Below, in pieces: positions 25,073 to 46,800 of a stretch of DNA of 64,000 bases. A model generated the notes under the pieces. The model was given only the letters and a program-made list of their open reading frames with translations. It did no database searches and had not been told where the DNA came from. Position 1 is the first letter of the stretch; each line of letters opens with the position of its first letter. Made by a program: the position numbers and the translations under genes. Source of the stretch: Nitriliruptoraceae bacterium (GTDB taxonomy: Bacteria > Actinomycetota > Nitriliruptoria > Nitriliruptorales > Nitriliruptoraceae); the NCBI GenBank assembly GCA_003563915.1, contig PWTE01000071.1, positions 1 through 64,000 on the forward strand. The letters run 5' to 3'.

Positions 25073-25273
25073 CGGCATCCCTCGTGACGACGGTTGCGTG
25101 AACCGTACGGGTCCGCGGCCCTCGCCGCGGTCATCACCGCTGGTCGTGACCGCGGAGATCGTCCCCGCGCCGTAGACCTCGACACGAGCGATACGCTGTC
25201 GCATCCAGATACGGGGTCGTATCCGAGTTTCCCGCCGTTGCGCCCTCGTCACTCGCTCGTCACCGGAGGCACC

Positions 25274-27328
25274 GTGTCCACCGCTGCCTCGCCGCCCCGG
25301 ATCTCCCGGCGCGCGCGGGCCGTCGCCCGGCGCGCCCGCCGACGTCGCCACGTCATCGACGCCACGCGGGCGGTCGGTGTCGCGCTCGCGGCGCTGGCAC
25401 TGGTCGGGGTGCCCGTCCCCTCCAGCGCCCCGGTGCTGGCCTGCGGGCAGGAGCGGGCCACCACGATCGTCCGGCTCGGCGAGCTCGCGGACGATGGCGA
25501 GCTGACCGCACTGCGCGAACGCCACCTCACGGACGGTACGGAGCCCTGCGAGACCGAGGTGTCGGACGCGACCGACGTCGCGGTTGCCATCGTCCACCAG
25601 GACGCGGCCGGCCGTTCGCTGGAAACCTCGGAGCTGGGGCGTGTGGACGGACCCGTCGATACCCGTGTCAGCGTGCGCGATACCACCGCCCGCACGGAGG
25701 ACCTCGTCGTCACGGGCCCGGCGGGCGTCGTCTCCGCGACGCGTCGCATCGGGGTCCCGCAACTGGTCCGGATCACGATCACGTACCCCTCGGGCTGGGA
25801 GCTGGGGTCGGCACGTGGTGACGGCGTCAGCGTCAGCATCCTCGAGGACGGTGTCGAGGTGACCCGCTCGGGCGTGCTGTTCCCGCCGCTGTTCGCTACC
25901 GCGCTCCAACTCACGACGACCGCGAGGCCTGCCCGCGGCACCCCCACCGTCACGGTGGAGGCGACGCCGCTCGCCCAGGGCGCGCCGGTGCCATCGACCC
26001 TGCTCGACCGTGACACGACCGCGGTCGTCGGTGCGCTGCTCGACGTCACCCGCGGCGGCGTCCGCGAGCTCGCCGATGGGGCTGGTCAGCTGGCCGACGG
26101 CACGGATGCGCTGGCCGGAGGTGCCCGCGAACTGGCCGACGGTACGGAGGAACTGGCCGCCGGGGCCCGCGAGCTCGCCGATGGCACGGAAGGACTCGTC
26201 GACGGCGCTGCCGAGCTGCGTGATGGCACCCGAGGACTCAGCCGCGGTGTCGGCCAGAGTGCGATCGGGGCCGAGGAGCTCGCCGGAGGCGCGGACGCGT
26301 TGGCCGACGGCACCAGCGAGCTGGCAGCGGGGACCGCGCCGTTGGCCGCCGGTGCGCGTGAGCTCGCTGAGGGTGCCCAGCAACTGGCTGATGGGTTGGC
26401 GATCGACGACGAGCTCACCTCACCGCCGATCGACCCGCAGGAGCTGCTCGACGCGGTCGACGCCATCGAGGACGGGATCCGCGAGGTACGTGACGACCTC
26501 GCCGACCTGGTGCCGCCGGGGACCGATCCGACCGACCCCGAGGACCCCAACGCACCACTCGCGGTGGCCGTGCTGGTCCTGACGGGTCTGGCCGATGCGA
26601 CCGGCGAGCTGGCTGCCGGGATCGCCGCGGCCCTTCAGGCGCTGGTCGACGCGGCGGAGGGCCTGGCGGCTGCCGCCGACGGCGCCGCTGAACTCGCGGC
26701 CGGCGCTCAGGAGCTCGCCGCCGGCCTCGCCCAGCTCGACGCGGCGGTCCGGGGCATCCGGGACGGCGCGGACGCGCTGGCGGCGGGTTCCGGTGAGCTG
26801 GCCGGTGGCCTCGGTCAGCTGTCAGGCGCGTCGAGGCAGGTCGCCGATGGCGCCAGCGAGCTCACGGACGGCAGCCGTGAACTGGCCGCTGGCAGCGACG
26901 GGTTGGCGGCCGGCAGCCGTGAACTGGCCGCTGGCAGCGACGACCTGGCGGACGGTAGCCGCGAGGTGGCCGACGGTGCTGACGAGCTCGCGGAGGGTGC
27001 CGGTGAGCTGCCCGCAGCCGTCACGGACATCCTCGAGATCGCCGACCGTGGTGGCGAGCGCGCCGCCGTCACCGATGCGGTCCTCGACGCGGGAGCGCGC
27101 CGCGCGTCGGAGCGGGTCGGTGAGGCCGAGCTGGTCACCACCCAGCTGGTCCACCGCGGCGGCCAGCCCCTGCCGGTGGTGGTCCTCGCCCTGGGTGGCC
27201 TCGCGGTGCTGGTCGCCCTCGGGTTGCCCCTGTGGCTGTGGGGTCGACGCCGCGAGGGGTCGGGGCCGCCGACCGAGACCGAGGCCGGGGAGCCGACCCT
27301 CGCCGGGGTAGGGGGAGGCGACCGATGA
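25274..27328 (+). CDS. LxxG heptad-repeat exported/membrane protein
   Basis: 684 residues from the GTG at 25274 (GGAGG at 25265-25269). A very basic N-terminus precedes a hydrophobic segment (about 32-55) ending VLAC at C57, which could be a lipobox or a signal-peptide end; a second cysteine is C92. Residues 60-250 form a beta-rich domain with no family I recognise. Two blocks of seven-residue repeats with the pattern LADGxxE follow: about 16 units (266-377) and about 19 (446-580). They are split by an acidic/proline linker with one hydrophobic stretch. A membrane helix lies at 633-656. The X3-Leu-X2-Gly heptads match TIGR03057-type repeats found in YhgE/Pip-like and MMPL-associated proteins. 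It is co-translated with TetR and MMPL genes, so a role as partner of the transporter is inferred. Confidence 0.85.
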   Translation: MSTAASPPRISRRARAVARRARRRRHVIDATRAVGVALAALALVGVPVPSSAPVLACGQERATTIVRLGELADDGELTALRERHLTDGTEPCETEVSDATDVAVAIVHQDAAGRSLETSELGRVDGPVDTRVSVRDTTARTEDLVVTGPAGVVSATRRIGVPQLVRITITYPSGWELGSARGDGVSVSILEDGVEVTRSGVLFPPLFATALQLTTTARPARGTPTVTVEATPLAQGAPVPSTLLDRDTTAVVGALLDVTRGGVRELADGAGQLADGTDALAGGARELADGTEELAAGARELADGTEGLVDGAAELRDGTRGLSRGVGQSAIGAEELAGGADALADGTSELAAGTAPLAAGARELAEGAQQLADGLAIDDELTSPPIDPQELLDAVDAIEDGIREVRDDLADLVPPGTDPTDPEDPNAPLAVAVLVLTGLADATGELAAGIAAALQALVDAAEGLAAAADGAAELAAGAQELAAGLAQLDAAVRGIRDGADALAAGSGELAGGLGQLSGASRQVADGASELTDGSRELAAGSDGLAAGSRELAAGSDDLADGSREVADGADELAEGAGELPAAVTDILEIADRGGERAAVTDAVLDAGARRASERVGEAELVTTQLVHRGGQPLPVVVLALGGLAVLVALGLPLWLWGRRREGSGPPTETEAGEPTLAGVGGGDR
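26870..26942 (+). repeat. 31-bp exact direct repeat inside the heptad gene
   Basis: The 31 bases at 26870-26900 recur exactly at 26912-26942. The 42-bp offset equals 14 codons, two heptads. This is a recent in-frame duplication within repeat block 2. Confidence 0.9.
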
Positions 27329-27927
27329 GCGACGCGCCCACGCGGCTGACCCGCGCCGAGCAGCAGGCCCGGACCCGCGAACGCCTGCTCGCGGCGGCCG
27401 CCGACGCCTTCGCCGAGCACGGGTTCGACGGCGCGTCGATCGACGACATCACCGCCCGCGCCGGCTTCAGCCGCGGTGCGTTCTACTCCAACTTCGCCGA
27501 CAAGAGCGACCTGCTCGTGCAGCTGTGCGAGGCGCACATCGACCGGTTCGCACGGGCGGAGCTGCCCGCGATCCTGGCGGTCCCTGAGCAGGAGCAGCTC
27601 GCGGCGGTGGCGCGGTGGCTGGTCCAGGAGGAGCCACCGCTCGAGACGCTGCTGGTCGTGGAGCTCGCACGTCAGCGGCACCGGCCGGAGATCGCCGCCA
27701 CCCTCGACCGGGTGCTCGCGACCGTGATCGACGGCATCGAGGGGCTGCTGACCGTCGAGGGCAGCCAGCTCGCCGGACTCGGGCGCGACGAGGTGCAGGC
27801 GCGGTCCCGCGCCGTGCTGGCCGCGGTCGTCGGGATCGACGTGCTGGGGCACGTCGGCATCCCGATCGATCGCCGGGTGATCGAACTGCTGTTGGCCGGC
27901 ATCGCCGACCCGGAGGCGGCTACGTGA
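27325..27927 (+). CDS. TetR/AcrR family transcriptional regulator
   Basis: 200 residues. The N-terminal helix-turn-helix is standard: RERLLAAAADAFAEHGFDGASID, DITARAGFSRGAFYSNFADKSDLL. The C-terminal ligand domain is unspecific. The ATG overlaps the heptad-protein stop (ATGA) and its own stop overlaps the MMPL GTG, so it sits in the middle of the coupled operon. It likely represses that operon; the inducer is unknown. Confidence 0.92.
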   Translation: MSDAPTRLTRAEQQARTRERLLAAAADAFAEHGFDGASIDDITARAGFSRGAFYSNFADKSDLLVQLCEAHIDRFARAELPAILAVPEQEQLAAVARWLVQEEPPLETLLVVELARQRHRPEIAATLDRVLATVIDGIEGLLTVEGSQLAGLGRDEVQARSRAVLAAVVGIDVLGHVGIPIDRRVIELLLAGIADPEAAT

Positions 27928-30797
27928 GCCGCTGGCTCGACGCGCTGGCCCGTGGGGTCACCCGGATCCCGCGGCTGACCCTGGCCATGCTGGTCGCGGT
28001 GACGGTCGCGCTGGGTGCCGCGGCGTCACTGCTCGAGGTCGACACGAGTGTCGAGGGCTTCGCACCCGCGGATGGCCGCGCCGCGACGCTCGATCGGATC
28101 GAGGACCGTTTCACGACCGCCACGTCCGTCCAGGTCCTCATCGACGCGGGGCCGGGGGGAGACGTCATCACCCCGGCCACGATCACCGCCGTCGACGACC
28201 TCGCCGCCGCGATCGAGGCCGACCCGGACGTCGCACCCGTCCTGGCGCCCGAGGCGATCGGTCAGCCTCCGGTGGTCAGCTTCGCGCTGCCCTTCGATGC
28301 CGCCGGCGAGGCACTGGATCAGCCGCTGGAGGAACTCGACCCGGCCACCTTCGAGGCGCTCGCCCGCGGTATCGTTGCGGACGGGGGCGACGAGGTCGCC
28401 GGCCTGTTCTCCGACGACCTCGTCAGCGACCCGCCGCAGGCACGGGCGGGGCTGCTCGTCGTCGACCTGGACGCCACCGCGTCCAGCGCGGAACGCGAGC
28501 GGGCGACGCGGGCCATCACCGCCTGGGTCGATCGCACCGAGGTCGGCGACACGCGCCGCGCCACGTTGTCGATCCTGGCGATCGAGGAGGGCATCGAGGC
28601 CGCGCTCGAACGCGACCTGCCCGTGCTGCTCTCCATCTCGCTGCTCCTCGTGGTGCTGGTGCTGGCCCTGCTGTTCCGTTCCGTCGTGGACGTCCTGGTC
28701 GGGCTGGCCGGGTTGCTCGGCAGCATCGTGTGGATGGCGGGGTTCGCCGGGCTCCTGGGGCCGGGCGGGCTCGGGCTCACCGGTCCGTTCACGCAGGTCG
28801 CCACGGCGGTCCCCGTCCTGCTCGTCGGGCTCGGGATCGACTACTCGGTGCACCTGACGACCCGCTACCGGGAGCAACGCCGCCACGGTGATGATGCGAT
28901 CCGCTCCTCGCGGGTGGCCCTGGCCACGGTGGGCGTCGCCCTGGTGCTCGCGACCGTGGCCTCCGTCGCCGGGTTCCTGGCCAACATCGTGACCCCGTTG
29001 CCACCGATCCGTGACTTCGGCATCTTCGCCGCGATCGGGATCGTCAGCGCGTTCGTGATCCTGTCGACGGCCGTGCCGGCTGCTCGGACGCTGGCCGACC
29101 GGCGGCGGGACGCGGGGGCACCCGCTCCGGGGCCGGACGACACCCGGTCCGCCTCCGACGATCCCACCCCACCCGCATGGGCCCGAGCGGCCACGCAGGT
29201 GGCGACCCGCACCCCCACCCTCGCCCTGGGCATCACGTTCCTGGTCCTGCTCGGCGCCGGGTATGCCGCGACGGGGCTGTCCACGGAGTTCGACGAGCGC
29301 GACTTCCTCCCGGAGGGCGAGCCGGTGCTCGCGACGATCGACCGGCTGGACGCCCGGTTCGGCGGCGACGTCAGTGAGCGCACGTTCCTGCTGGTCGACG
29401 GTGACCCGACCGACCCGACGCTGCTCGCGGCGGTGGCGGCCACCGAGGACCGGCTTCCCCAGGTCGAGGATGTCCGCACGATCGAGGACGACGCCGAACG
29501 CTCGTCGCCGCTCGAGCTACGGCAGCGCATCGTGCGCCGCGGGGAGCGGGTACGCGAAGGGCTCGCGGATGACCTCGCCGCCTGGCAGGACCCCGAGGCC
29601 GCTGCGGCCGACGTGGACCTGCCGGACCCGCTGGACACCGAGGCGTTCCTCGATGACCTCGATGAGGTGGAGCTCGACGACGAGCTCCGCGAGGCGCTGC
29701 TCGGACGGCTCCCGGAGGGCCGCGATCCACTCGCCGCGCTGCTCGCCACCATCGACCCAGCGGAGCTGGAGGCCGAGATCCGTGCCGGGTTGGCGGAGGG
29801 GTTCGCGGAGGGCCGCCCTGACGAGCTCGCGGATGCCGCGGTGGACGACCTGGCCGCACGGCCCGCGCCCGAGCTCACGCTGGCTCGGCTGCAGCAGGCA
29901 GGGTTCCCGCTGGCCGAGCTGGACCCGGACGAGCGCGAACGCCTGGAGCAGCTGGAGGCCCTGGAGGCCGTCGGCGACGTCGACAGCCGCGACGGCCGGA
30001 TCCTCGCCGCCCACCTCGACGTCCTGGCGGACGTCGCGCCGAACGACCTCGCGCGGGTGCTCGACGAGGAGGGCCTGCTCGTCGCCATCGCCACCCAGGC
30101 GGGGCAGGACGGCGCCGAGCGACTGGCTGCAGAGCTGGCTGCCGTGGCCACGCCGATCGAGACAGCCGGCGGCACGATCACGATCGTCAGCGACCCGCTG
30201 GTGAACGCCGAGATCATCGAGGAGCTGTCGGCGGCGCAACTGATCGCGATAGCGATCAGCCTGGCCGCTGCCGCCGCGCTGCTGGTCATCGCCACGCTCG
30301 CGAGCGCTCGCGTCGTCGGCCTCGGCCTGATCGGCATCGTGCCGAGCGTCGTCGCCCTGGTGCTGGTCCTCGGTGCCATGCGAGGGGTCGGACTCGCGTT
30401 CAACGCCCTGACGGCCACGGTCGCGTCCATCGCCGTCGGCATCGGTGTGCCCTACGGCATCCACCTGACCAACCGTTACCGCGAAGCTCTGGCTCGCGGC
30501 TTCGACCCGGACGGGGCGGCGCGGGATGCCCTCACCAACACCGGGCCGGCGCTGGTGGGCTCCGCGGTGACCACGGGGCTGGCCTTCGCGGTGCTGATGC
30601 TGTCCAACAGCGTCCCCATCCGGCAGTTCGGTGCGGTCAGCACGATGATGATCGTCCTGGCCCTGGCCGCGTGTCTGTTCGTGCAGCCGGCCCTCCTGGT
30701 GCTCTGGGCCCGGCGGCGCAACGTGACCGGCGGTCGGCGGCAGCGCCGCCGCGACCGGGCAGAGGCGCAGGCCGGGGAGGCGCTCCCGGTACCGTGA
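27924..30797 (+). CDS. MMPL/RND family transporter, asymmetric
   Basis: 957 residues with the duplicated RND plan: TM1 at about 18-38, an extracytoplasmic domain to about 230, a five-helix bundle 232-390, TM7 at 432-450, a larger second domain 452-770, and helices 772-930. The first half has the proton-relay motif GLGIDYSVH (D306-Y307). The matching place in the second half reads GVPYGIH, with proline instead of aspartate. The second domain carries about 200 acidic, Leu/Glu-rich helical residues (525-735) absent from the first. Substrates of relatives include lipids and hopanoids. It starts at a GTG overlapping the TetR stop by 4 bp. The cytoplasmic tail is basic. Confidence 0.93.
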
Positions 30798-46138: not shown

Positions 46139-46167
46139 AGCGTACGTTCCATCTTTGAGTGTACGCT
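46139..46167. promoter_or_regulatory. Inverted-repeat operator between fadE5 and tetR
   Basis: AGCGTAC at 46139-46145 and its complement GTACGCT at 46161-46167 are separated by 15 bp in a locally AT-rich spot of the divergent gap. Size and placement suit a TetR-family dimer acting on both promoters, including autoregulation. Confidence 0.55.
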
Positions 46168-46230
46168 ACATTTCATCTGAACGCTCGTCCGTCGAGGCAG
46201 CGTCCGGCGACGAGAGCAGGGGAGGACGAG

Positions 46231-46800
46231 GTGGCCCGTTACCGCGTGGGGATCGAGACCCGCGAGCGCATCCTGTCCGCGACCCGCCGACTGTTGTCCG
46301 AGGTCGGGATCGAAGGCGTGACGCTGAAGGCCATCACCGATCAGGCCAGTGTCGGGGCCGGCAGCTTCTACAACCTGTTCGGCTCGAAGGAGGAGGCGGT
46401 CTTCGAGGTCGTCCGGGAGGCGATCGAGGCGGTCGACCCCGATCCGGAAGGTGTGGGGACCGACACGCTCGCGGACCTGGTCGACGCGTTCGTCACCTTC
46501 ATGACCGACTCGTCGCCGATCGCCCGCATCTACCTGCAGCTCGCGGTCGGTCGTGGCTTGACCGATCCCGCCATCGCGCACCGCGTCGTCCGGTCGCACC
46601 AGCGCCGGGTCGAGCGGTTCGCCGATGCCTGGCTGCGCGAGGATCCCTCCCTGAGCGAGCAGGAGGCCACCCGACGCGCCGAGGTGATGCTCGCGTCGCT
46701 CACGGGACTCGGGCTGTCGGCCCTGCTCGACGAGACCTTCGACATGCGTGCGCATGCCCGTGAGCTGGTGCCGGGTGCGCGGTCGACCACCGAGGGTTAG
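46231..46800 (+). CDS. TetR/AcrR regulator of fatty-acid genes (predicted)
   Basis: 189 residues. Helix-turn-helix: RERILSATRRLLSEVGIEGVTL, ITDQASVGAGSFYNLFGSKEEAVFEVV. The C-terminal helices look like ligand domains of FadR/FasR-type TetR proteins, with RIYLQLAVGRGL. The GTG has AGGGGAGG upstream. Divergence from fadE5 and the shared inverted repeat suggest it represses fadE5, responding to acyl-CoA; this is inference from context. Confidence 0.9.
   Translation: MARYRVGIETRERILSATRRLLSEVGIEGVTLKAITDQASVGAGSFYNLFGSKEEAVFEVVREAIEAVDPDPEGVGTDTLADLVDAFVTFMTDSSPIARIYLQLAVGRGLTDPAIAHRVVRSHQRRVERFADAWLREDPSLSEQEATRRAEVMLASLTGLGLSALLDETFDMRAHARELVPGARSTTEG

Follow-up and report, generated by a model that had tools for sequence, protein, structure and literature searches.

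What might a long, exported protein built of LxxG heptads do when its gene shares an operon with a TetR-family regulator and an MMPL/RND pump? The question is raised by three open reading frames, P0001, P0002 and P0003, of the window, by which is meant the whole stretch of 64,000 nucleotides of Nitriliruptoraceae DNA, from a metagenome-assembled contig, that was analysed. A literature search for TIGR03057 proteins together with MMPL pumps found no paper and nothing direct.

Organization of the Operon

All three genes, and the features within them, lie on the + strand. P0001 (25274..27328) has a GTG start and encodes an LxxG heptad coil protein of 684 aa (TIGR03057, E 6e-34), P0002 (27325..27927) encodes a TetR-family regulator of 200 aa (PF00440, E 5e-14), and P0003 (27924..30797) encodes an HAE3-like MMPL/RND pump of 957 aa (PF03176, E 8e-41). 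P0001 and P0002 share 4 bp at an ATGA (27325), and P0002 and P0003 share 4 bp at a GTGA (27924). The preliminary description had named the three products in the same way, with overlaps of this size, and these points are borne out here. Overlaps of 4 bp were found again in most orthologues and suggest translational coupling; the further claim that the genes are translated in fixed proportion is unsupported by them. Searches for σ70 promoter and terminator patterns returned none. Across the 4.15-Mb genome, the heptad signature occurs solely at the operon, and MMPL matches lie on four contigs. The window also contains another TetR-like open frame (46159-46797, + strand, E 2e-15).

The Heptad Protein

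P0001 scores 114.7 bits against TIGR03057, in eight stretches, where the curated cut-off is 18.6 bits, and is thus a member of that family. Counted strictly, with Leu at position a and Gly at position d by construction, it has 25 LxxG repeats, 15 in a first block (residues 266-371) and 10 in a second (474-572), each block keeping one register. When [LIVM]xxG is admitted, 28 repeats can be chained over 31 heptad slots. The two blocks had been recognized in the preliminary description, which had put the number of repeats too high, at about 35. Position b is mostly Ala (Ala/Ser/Thr), e mostly Ala/Thr/Ser and g mostly Glu, and with Gly at d the earlier wording "rigid, small-residue-rich" is fair at the level of sequence.

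The DNA is GC-rich, and repeats of this kind break assemblies, so that the heptads might be suspected of being low-complexity sequence or an artefact of reading frame. That explanation is refuted by the in-register counts (24 chained strict LxxG, versus 0.26 +/- 0.73 and a maximum of 8 in 20,000 residue shuffles), by the register kept in orthologues from the family loci that are 39-55% identical, and by indels in the repeat blocks that are mostly multiples of 7. Several draft contigs (L111, L117, L119, L120, L122 and L123) end within or beside heptad repeats; the absence of a gene from a metagenome-assembled genome is therefore often an assembly effect.

The N-terminal export sequence, a predicted signal peptide of residues 1-56 (25274..25441) that ends ...PVLA-C, is read from the sequence and from a modelled helix at 12-43. 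A type I signal peptidase site is preferred over a lipobox, judging from the V/G/S/A-x-A that precedes the Cys in the orthologues inspected. Cys57 and a Cys near residue 94, by the mature N-terminus, recur in the aligned full-length orthologues of the family and could possibly form a disulfide.

Next comes a predicted beta-sandwich domain, NDOM, at residues of about 62-233 (25457..25972), modelled by AlphaFold2 with a pLDDT mostly of 84-97. A profile of NDOM was built from the loci of this analysis; it matches 54 open frames in the collected loci, the window included, and covers residues 69-233 of P0001 (E 6e-40). No family counterpart was found in Pfam, NCBIfam or the PDB. Chemoreceptor coils and adaptin-type beta domains, proposed by Foldseek and phmmer, were rejected as reflecting coil composition and a generic sandwich, with low TM-scores. 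The MmpS proteins offer a parallel. MmpS4 and MmpS5 are likewise operon partners of MMPL pumps, and each combines a membrane helix with a beta-sandwich domain (PMC12803245). Unlike MmpS, P0001 carries a coil in addition and has its anchor at the C-terminus; NDOM had no MmpS sequence match in the PDB, and no MmpS was among the 50 Foldseek matches listed.

P0001 has the same repeat as the TIGR03057 proteins of the YhgE/Pip and EsaA-like permease kinds, and far exceeds the family cut-off. Unlike them, it lacks both the N- and the C-terminal YhgE/Pip domains (no match to TIGR03061 or TIGR03062) and has a single C-terminal membrane helix, not an ABC-2 permease; it is thus no YhgE/Pip protein. Homology of NDOM to the Pip N-terminal domain was ruled out, with an hhalign probability of 0.1. 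These results bear on the idea that P0001 senses the envelope or acts as a surface receptor and is co-regulated with the pump, much as Pip proteins might be. Pip proteins do bear heptads, and the variable extracellular region of Enterococcus PIP sets phage tropism (PMC4999554). Yet P0001, besides lacking the domains just named, has no signalling domain, and the fusion of heptads to MMPL described below favours a transport role, which makes a sensor distinctly improbable.

Evidence for an Antiparallel Hairpin

The structure of P0001 was modelled with AlphaFold2 on 13 orthologues (overall pLDDT 73, pTM 0.47). The model has helices at residues 246-304, 312-380, 388-410, 427-538 and 548-615, which make up a first arm (residues 246-410, 26009..26503; LxxG block 1 at 266-374, 26069-26395), a predicted hairpin tip at the helix break (411-426, 26504..26551), and a second arm (427-615, 26552..27118; LxxG block 2 at 474-575, 26693-26998). 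The chain then returns in a beta strand (620-627) and ends in a hydrophobic C-terminal membrane helix (635-661), followed by GRRRE (strand and helix together, 27131..27256); the helix had been expected from the preliminary description.

Pairwise alignments, which are independent of the model, revealed that heptad-sized insertions come in pairs. Five orthologues have +7 at residue 307 together with +7 at 545, and a sixth has paired insertions of +28 and +21. The midpoint of the 307/545 pair is residue 426, the predicted tip of the coil, and low-confidence breaks at 304-311 and 537-551 of the model lie opposite each other about the same centre. The lengths of the two blocks also co-vary (Spearman 0.71, n=24 proteins, relatives that are not independent). 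Because the insertions mirror each other about 426, the breaks face each other and the block lengths are correlated, the evidence supports an antiparallel hairpin with arms of about 165-190 residues. At 0.15 nm per residue it would be roughly 25 nm long.

The MMPL Pump

P0003 matches PF03176 in two stretches (140.6 bits, above the gathering cut-off), as expected of a pump with two MMPL units. Its second extracytoplasmic loop is 307 aa long versus 180 aa for the first, and the label "asymmetric" of the preliminary description was apt. In sequence and in model (pLDDT 82; best PDB matches MmpL5, MmpL4 and HpnN), P0003 resembles the HAE3 and HpnN-type RND exporters. It differs from them in a long porter-domain insert, in having a coil partner and in falling below the curated cut-offs of both TIGR00921, the HAE3 model (250.7 versus 351.9 bits), and TIGR00833, the model of the cluster I MmpL proteins with a coiled coil (209.9 versus 874.7 bits); it was thus filed as MMPL and HAE3-like only. 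The insert lies within the second porter domain, at residues of about 529-710 (29508..30053), and is modelled as compact, with short helices and no long hairpin. As the sequence of P0003 is not of the MmpL4/5 type and the pump keeps an insert of 203 aa, P0003 is not simply a pump that has lost its coil.

The MMPL proton relay is represented by Asp306-Tyr307 in TM4 (28839..28844), whereas the counterpart in TM10 is Pro843-Tyr844 (30450..30455), with Pro-Tyr for Asp-Tyr as in many HAE3 relatives. The TM4 Asp is kept in all sequences of the P0003 clade, and the TM10 Asp is mostly replaced by Pro (21 of 26), which would give the clade an asymmetric relay.

Linkage of Heptad and MMPL Genes

The order heptad-TetR-MMPL was found in 16/16 readable Nitriliruptoraceae loci, the window counted, where readable means that the contig reaches; one contig (L129, genome G002) stops just before the heptad gene. 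The relatives' MMPL proteins are 56-75% identical to P0003, and the P0002 orthologues, 44-66% identical, lie between both partner genes. The genes that flank the operon vary and are unrelated outside the genus, HemE at one same-genus locus being the exception. A guess at the cargo from neighbouring trehalose and heme genes was dropped because the flanks are not conserved outside the genus. More distant orthologues have other arrangements, including MMPL, small membrane protein and heptad gene in that order (L089, L090) and a divergent pair (L105, L125), and other families have MMPL-heptad pairs with overlapping or abutting frames (L108, L223, L265).

TIGR03057 is present in 77 of 397 sampled Actinomycetota genomes. 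Outside the class to which the window belongs, 72 TIGR03057 genes, the best-scoring part of the matches listed, were sorted into 46 YhgE/Pip permeases, 13 fusions into MMPL, 10 beta-domain coil genes and 3 others. Within this best-scoring sample, 9/10 beta-domain coil genes have an MMPL gene at a distance of 3 kb or less, versus 8/46 Pip genes; for a rough baseline, the presence of four MMPL contigs per 4.15 Mb would give a chance neighbour about 1% of the time. A TetR gene lies within 3 kb of 53 of the 72. The expectation that heptad proteins co-occur with MMPL genes thus holds for stand-alone beta-domain coil genes (9/10) and for the operon itself (16/16), but it does not extend to TIGR03057 genes at large, 46/72 of which are YhgE/Pip genes, with 8 of these near MMPL.

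These numbers also speak to the possibility that the heptad gene is a passenger whose neighbourhood has no function for the pump. The HAE3-type pumps of Acidimicrobiia and archaea indeed have no heptad neighbour gene, with TetR staying beside some of the actinobacterial ones. Nevertheless, the linkage occurs in several independent gene orders and in 9/10 cases outside the class, and the exclusive use of either a fused or a separate coil and the shared operator, both taken up below, point the same way; a passenger is strongly disfavoured.

YhgE/Pip genes form arrangements of their own. At eight loci (L210, L216, L224, L230, L233, L251, L264, L270), a YhgE/Pip heptad permease gene lies directly 3' of MMPL on the same strand, the open frames overlapping, and several MMPL-YhgE/Pip heptad loci have a divergent TetR, a second arrangement in trans.

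Built-In and Separate Coils

In three relatives of the same bacterial family (L100, L109, L112), LxxG heptads lie inside the MMPL protein itself. The alignment of such fused-heptad pumps to MmpL4 ends at residue 483 and restarts at 696, and the heptads therefore take the place of the MmpL4 coiled-coil insert (residues 484-695). When insert lengths were measured over the MMPL alignment, pumps with a built-in coil had 303-326 aa, those outside the class that adjoin a separate beta-coil gene had 37 aa (9/9), and the measured ones adjoining a Pip-heptad gene had 17 aa (7/7). The P0003 clade has 203-251 aa, and HAE3 relatives with no coil partner mostly have 84-88 aa. The coil is thus either built in or next door. 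The earlier idea of a membrane-tethered, envelope-spanning coil gains support from the hairpin evidence and from these fused counterparts, which sit where MmpL4/5 have their coiled coil; the exchange of the coil between cis and trans, like the operator, goes beyond that reading.

As a follow-up test, genomes with a long-insert pump and no linked coil gene were searched for a coil gene elsewhere. An unlinked one was present in G038 (a single contig), G063 and G011, that of G038 and G063 being Leu/Asp-rich and not LxxG. No beta-domain gene was found in three further long-insert genomes, all drafts (G043, G054 and Cellulomonas bogoriensis, G431), and a genome-wide search of four short-insert genomes (G042, G432, G433, G434) found no coil gene. 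The C. bogoriensis locus (L146) has a long-insert MMPL with a divergent TetR, and its contig stops about 70 bp beyond the TetR frame.

Beta-domain coil genes also occur in other company. Eleven MMPL-less ones (L091, L092, L093, L094, L102, L103, L104, L106, L110, L118, L237) are preceded by a gene for a small multi-helix membrane protein, and at three loci (L089, L090, L116) the same small protein sits between MMPL and the coil gene. Four beta-domain proteins (L105:7223-10546, L125:10692-13991, L290:7666-11412, L291:2499-6074) keep the layout with a Leu/Asp-rich coil (LLxDLDLxxL) in place of LxxG.

Many beta-domain coil genes of the class are paired in this way, lacking an MMPL and accompanied by a small membrane protein of about 180 aa that matches no known family. 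P0001 might then act more generally, as a scaffold or spacer spanning the wall for several small membrane machines, with MMPL as one client; the coil would position the machine in the wall and leave the cargo untouched, and the fact that the coil can turn Leu/Asp-rich while the architecture persists would suit such a role. The exchange with a built-in MMPL coil and the closed heptad-TetR-MMPL cassette point instead to a role specific to the pump, and a general scaffold is judged unlikely.

Regulation

P0002 scores 52.1 bits against TetR_N (cut-off 24), which places it among the TetR regulators; at 60.3 bits against NF041196 (cut-off 150), it falls outside the ScbR-type autoregulator-binding factors. 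A candidate operator, the palindrome CCAGATAC-GGGGTC-GTATCCGA (25205..25226), lies 48 bp upstream of the P0001 start. Its core, GATAC-N6-GTATC (25208-25223), is exact in 7/8 orthologous upstream regions, the second half-site of the other (L081, genome G029) being GTATT. The columns GATAC and GTAT are unchanged in 8/8 promoters, and in L077 and L083 the palindrome is perfect across 20-22 bp.

The core occurs once in its own 4.15-Mb genome, where a reversed-pattern control gave 0, and 0 are expected in the window. It was found at the matching promoter in operon-bearing G001, G007 (with one extra site), G012, G023, G025, G031 and G034, and the exact core was absent from the half-complete genomes G003 and G029. 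Genomes with no operon orthologue have none (G010, G014, G008) or one elsewhere (G004, G005). The palindrome is thus likely to be the operator that P0002 would bind, going by its sequence and distribution.

A Proposed Mechanism

Several known systems provide a frame. Deletion of the coil of MmpL5 abolishes efflux, and the coil has been modelled as a 13-nm tube (PMC12501195). In MmpL10, it is the coil that brings about oligomerization, and it forms a tube-like extension (PMC12183618); MmpS beta-sandwich domains encircle the MmpL coil stalk (PMC12803245). The P0001 coil, as predicted, resembles those of MmpL4, MmpL5 and MmpL10 as a long extracytoplasmic antiparallel helical hairpin for an MMPL pump, the relatives' fused LxxG coils lying at the same position. 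It differs in being encoded by a gene of its own, as part of a chain that also has an export signal, a beta domain and a membrane anchor; in its LxxG heptads; and in its probable length, roughly 25 nm versus 13 nm for MmpL5 (PMC12501195). An MMPL pump with a coiled-coil extension is a known kind; the extension on a separate polypeptide would be new.

From the observed gene order, paired insertions, exchange of the coil and conserved operator, a model can be proposed in which binding, oligomeric state, transport and its direction, cargo, ligand and the contact of TetR with its operator are all suppositions. P0003 would be an MMPL exporter driven by protons, its cargo a lipid (as assumed from the MMPL family) or another amphiphile. 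P0001 would be secreted and anchored by its C-terminal helix, with the beta domain near the membrane and the LxxG hairpin projecting from it across the zone of the wall. There, the coil would do in trans what the built-in coiled-coil domain of MmpL4/5/10 does in cis, coil and beta domain assembling on P0003 either to hold the pump or to form a stalk or conduit for delivery past the wall. On balance, P0001 is probably such a detached coiled-coil extension, under TetR control, serving to hold an MMPL exporter or guide it through the wall; the earlier notion of a guide for lipid cargo would be one form of this role. Against this reading stand the 203-aa insert of P0003 and its sequence, which is not of the MmpL4/5 type, the many beta-domain coil genes of the class that have no MMPL, the three draft long-insert genomes in which no beta-domain gene was found, the relatives with Leu/Asp-rich coils and the lack of any match between NDOM and MmpS.

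P0002 would repress the operon at the 25205-25226 palindrome and release it once cargo or a related ligand accumulates. That an amphiphile may also release P0002 is plausible because a TetR regulator paired with a fatty-acid MMPL exporter is known, namely FarR and the MMPL-type pump FarE of Staphylococcus aureus, whose genes are divergent (PMC12671165). The present operon shares with FarR/FarE the pairing of regulator and pump, and unlike it has one direction of transcription and a coil partner, none having been described for FarR/FarE.

Conceivably, though this is possible rather than probable, an entire class of MMPL exporters works with a free-standing coil protein under TetR control, in which an MmpS-like beta sandwich and a coiled-coil stalk, the two accessory elements of the mycobacterial MmpL pumps, are combined. 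A wall-crossing conduit would then be made from a separate chain, its length tuned by paired heptads to the thickness of the wall.

Significance

LxxG heptad proteins occur widely and essentially lack an explanation; the operon offers them a role that can be tested. How hydrophobic cargo passes the wall without TolC is a question about MMPL/RND pumps that is unsettled even in tuberculosis. With the coil on a separate chain, coil and pump could be deleted, swapped, shortened or tagged separately, and the unique operator would provide a direct route to the inducer and hence to the cargo.
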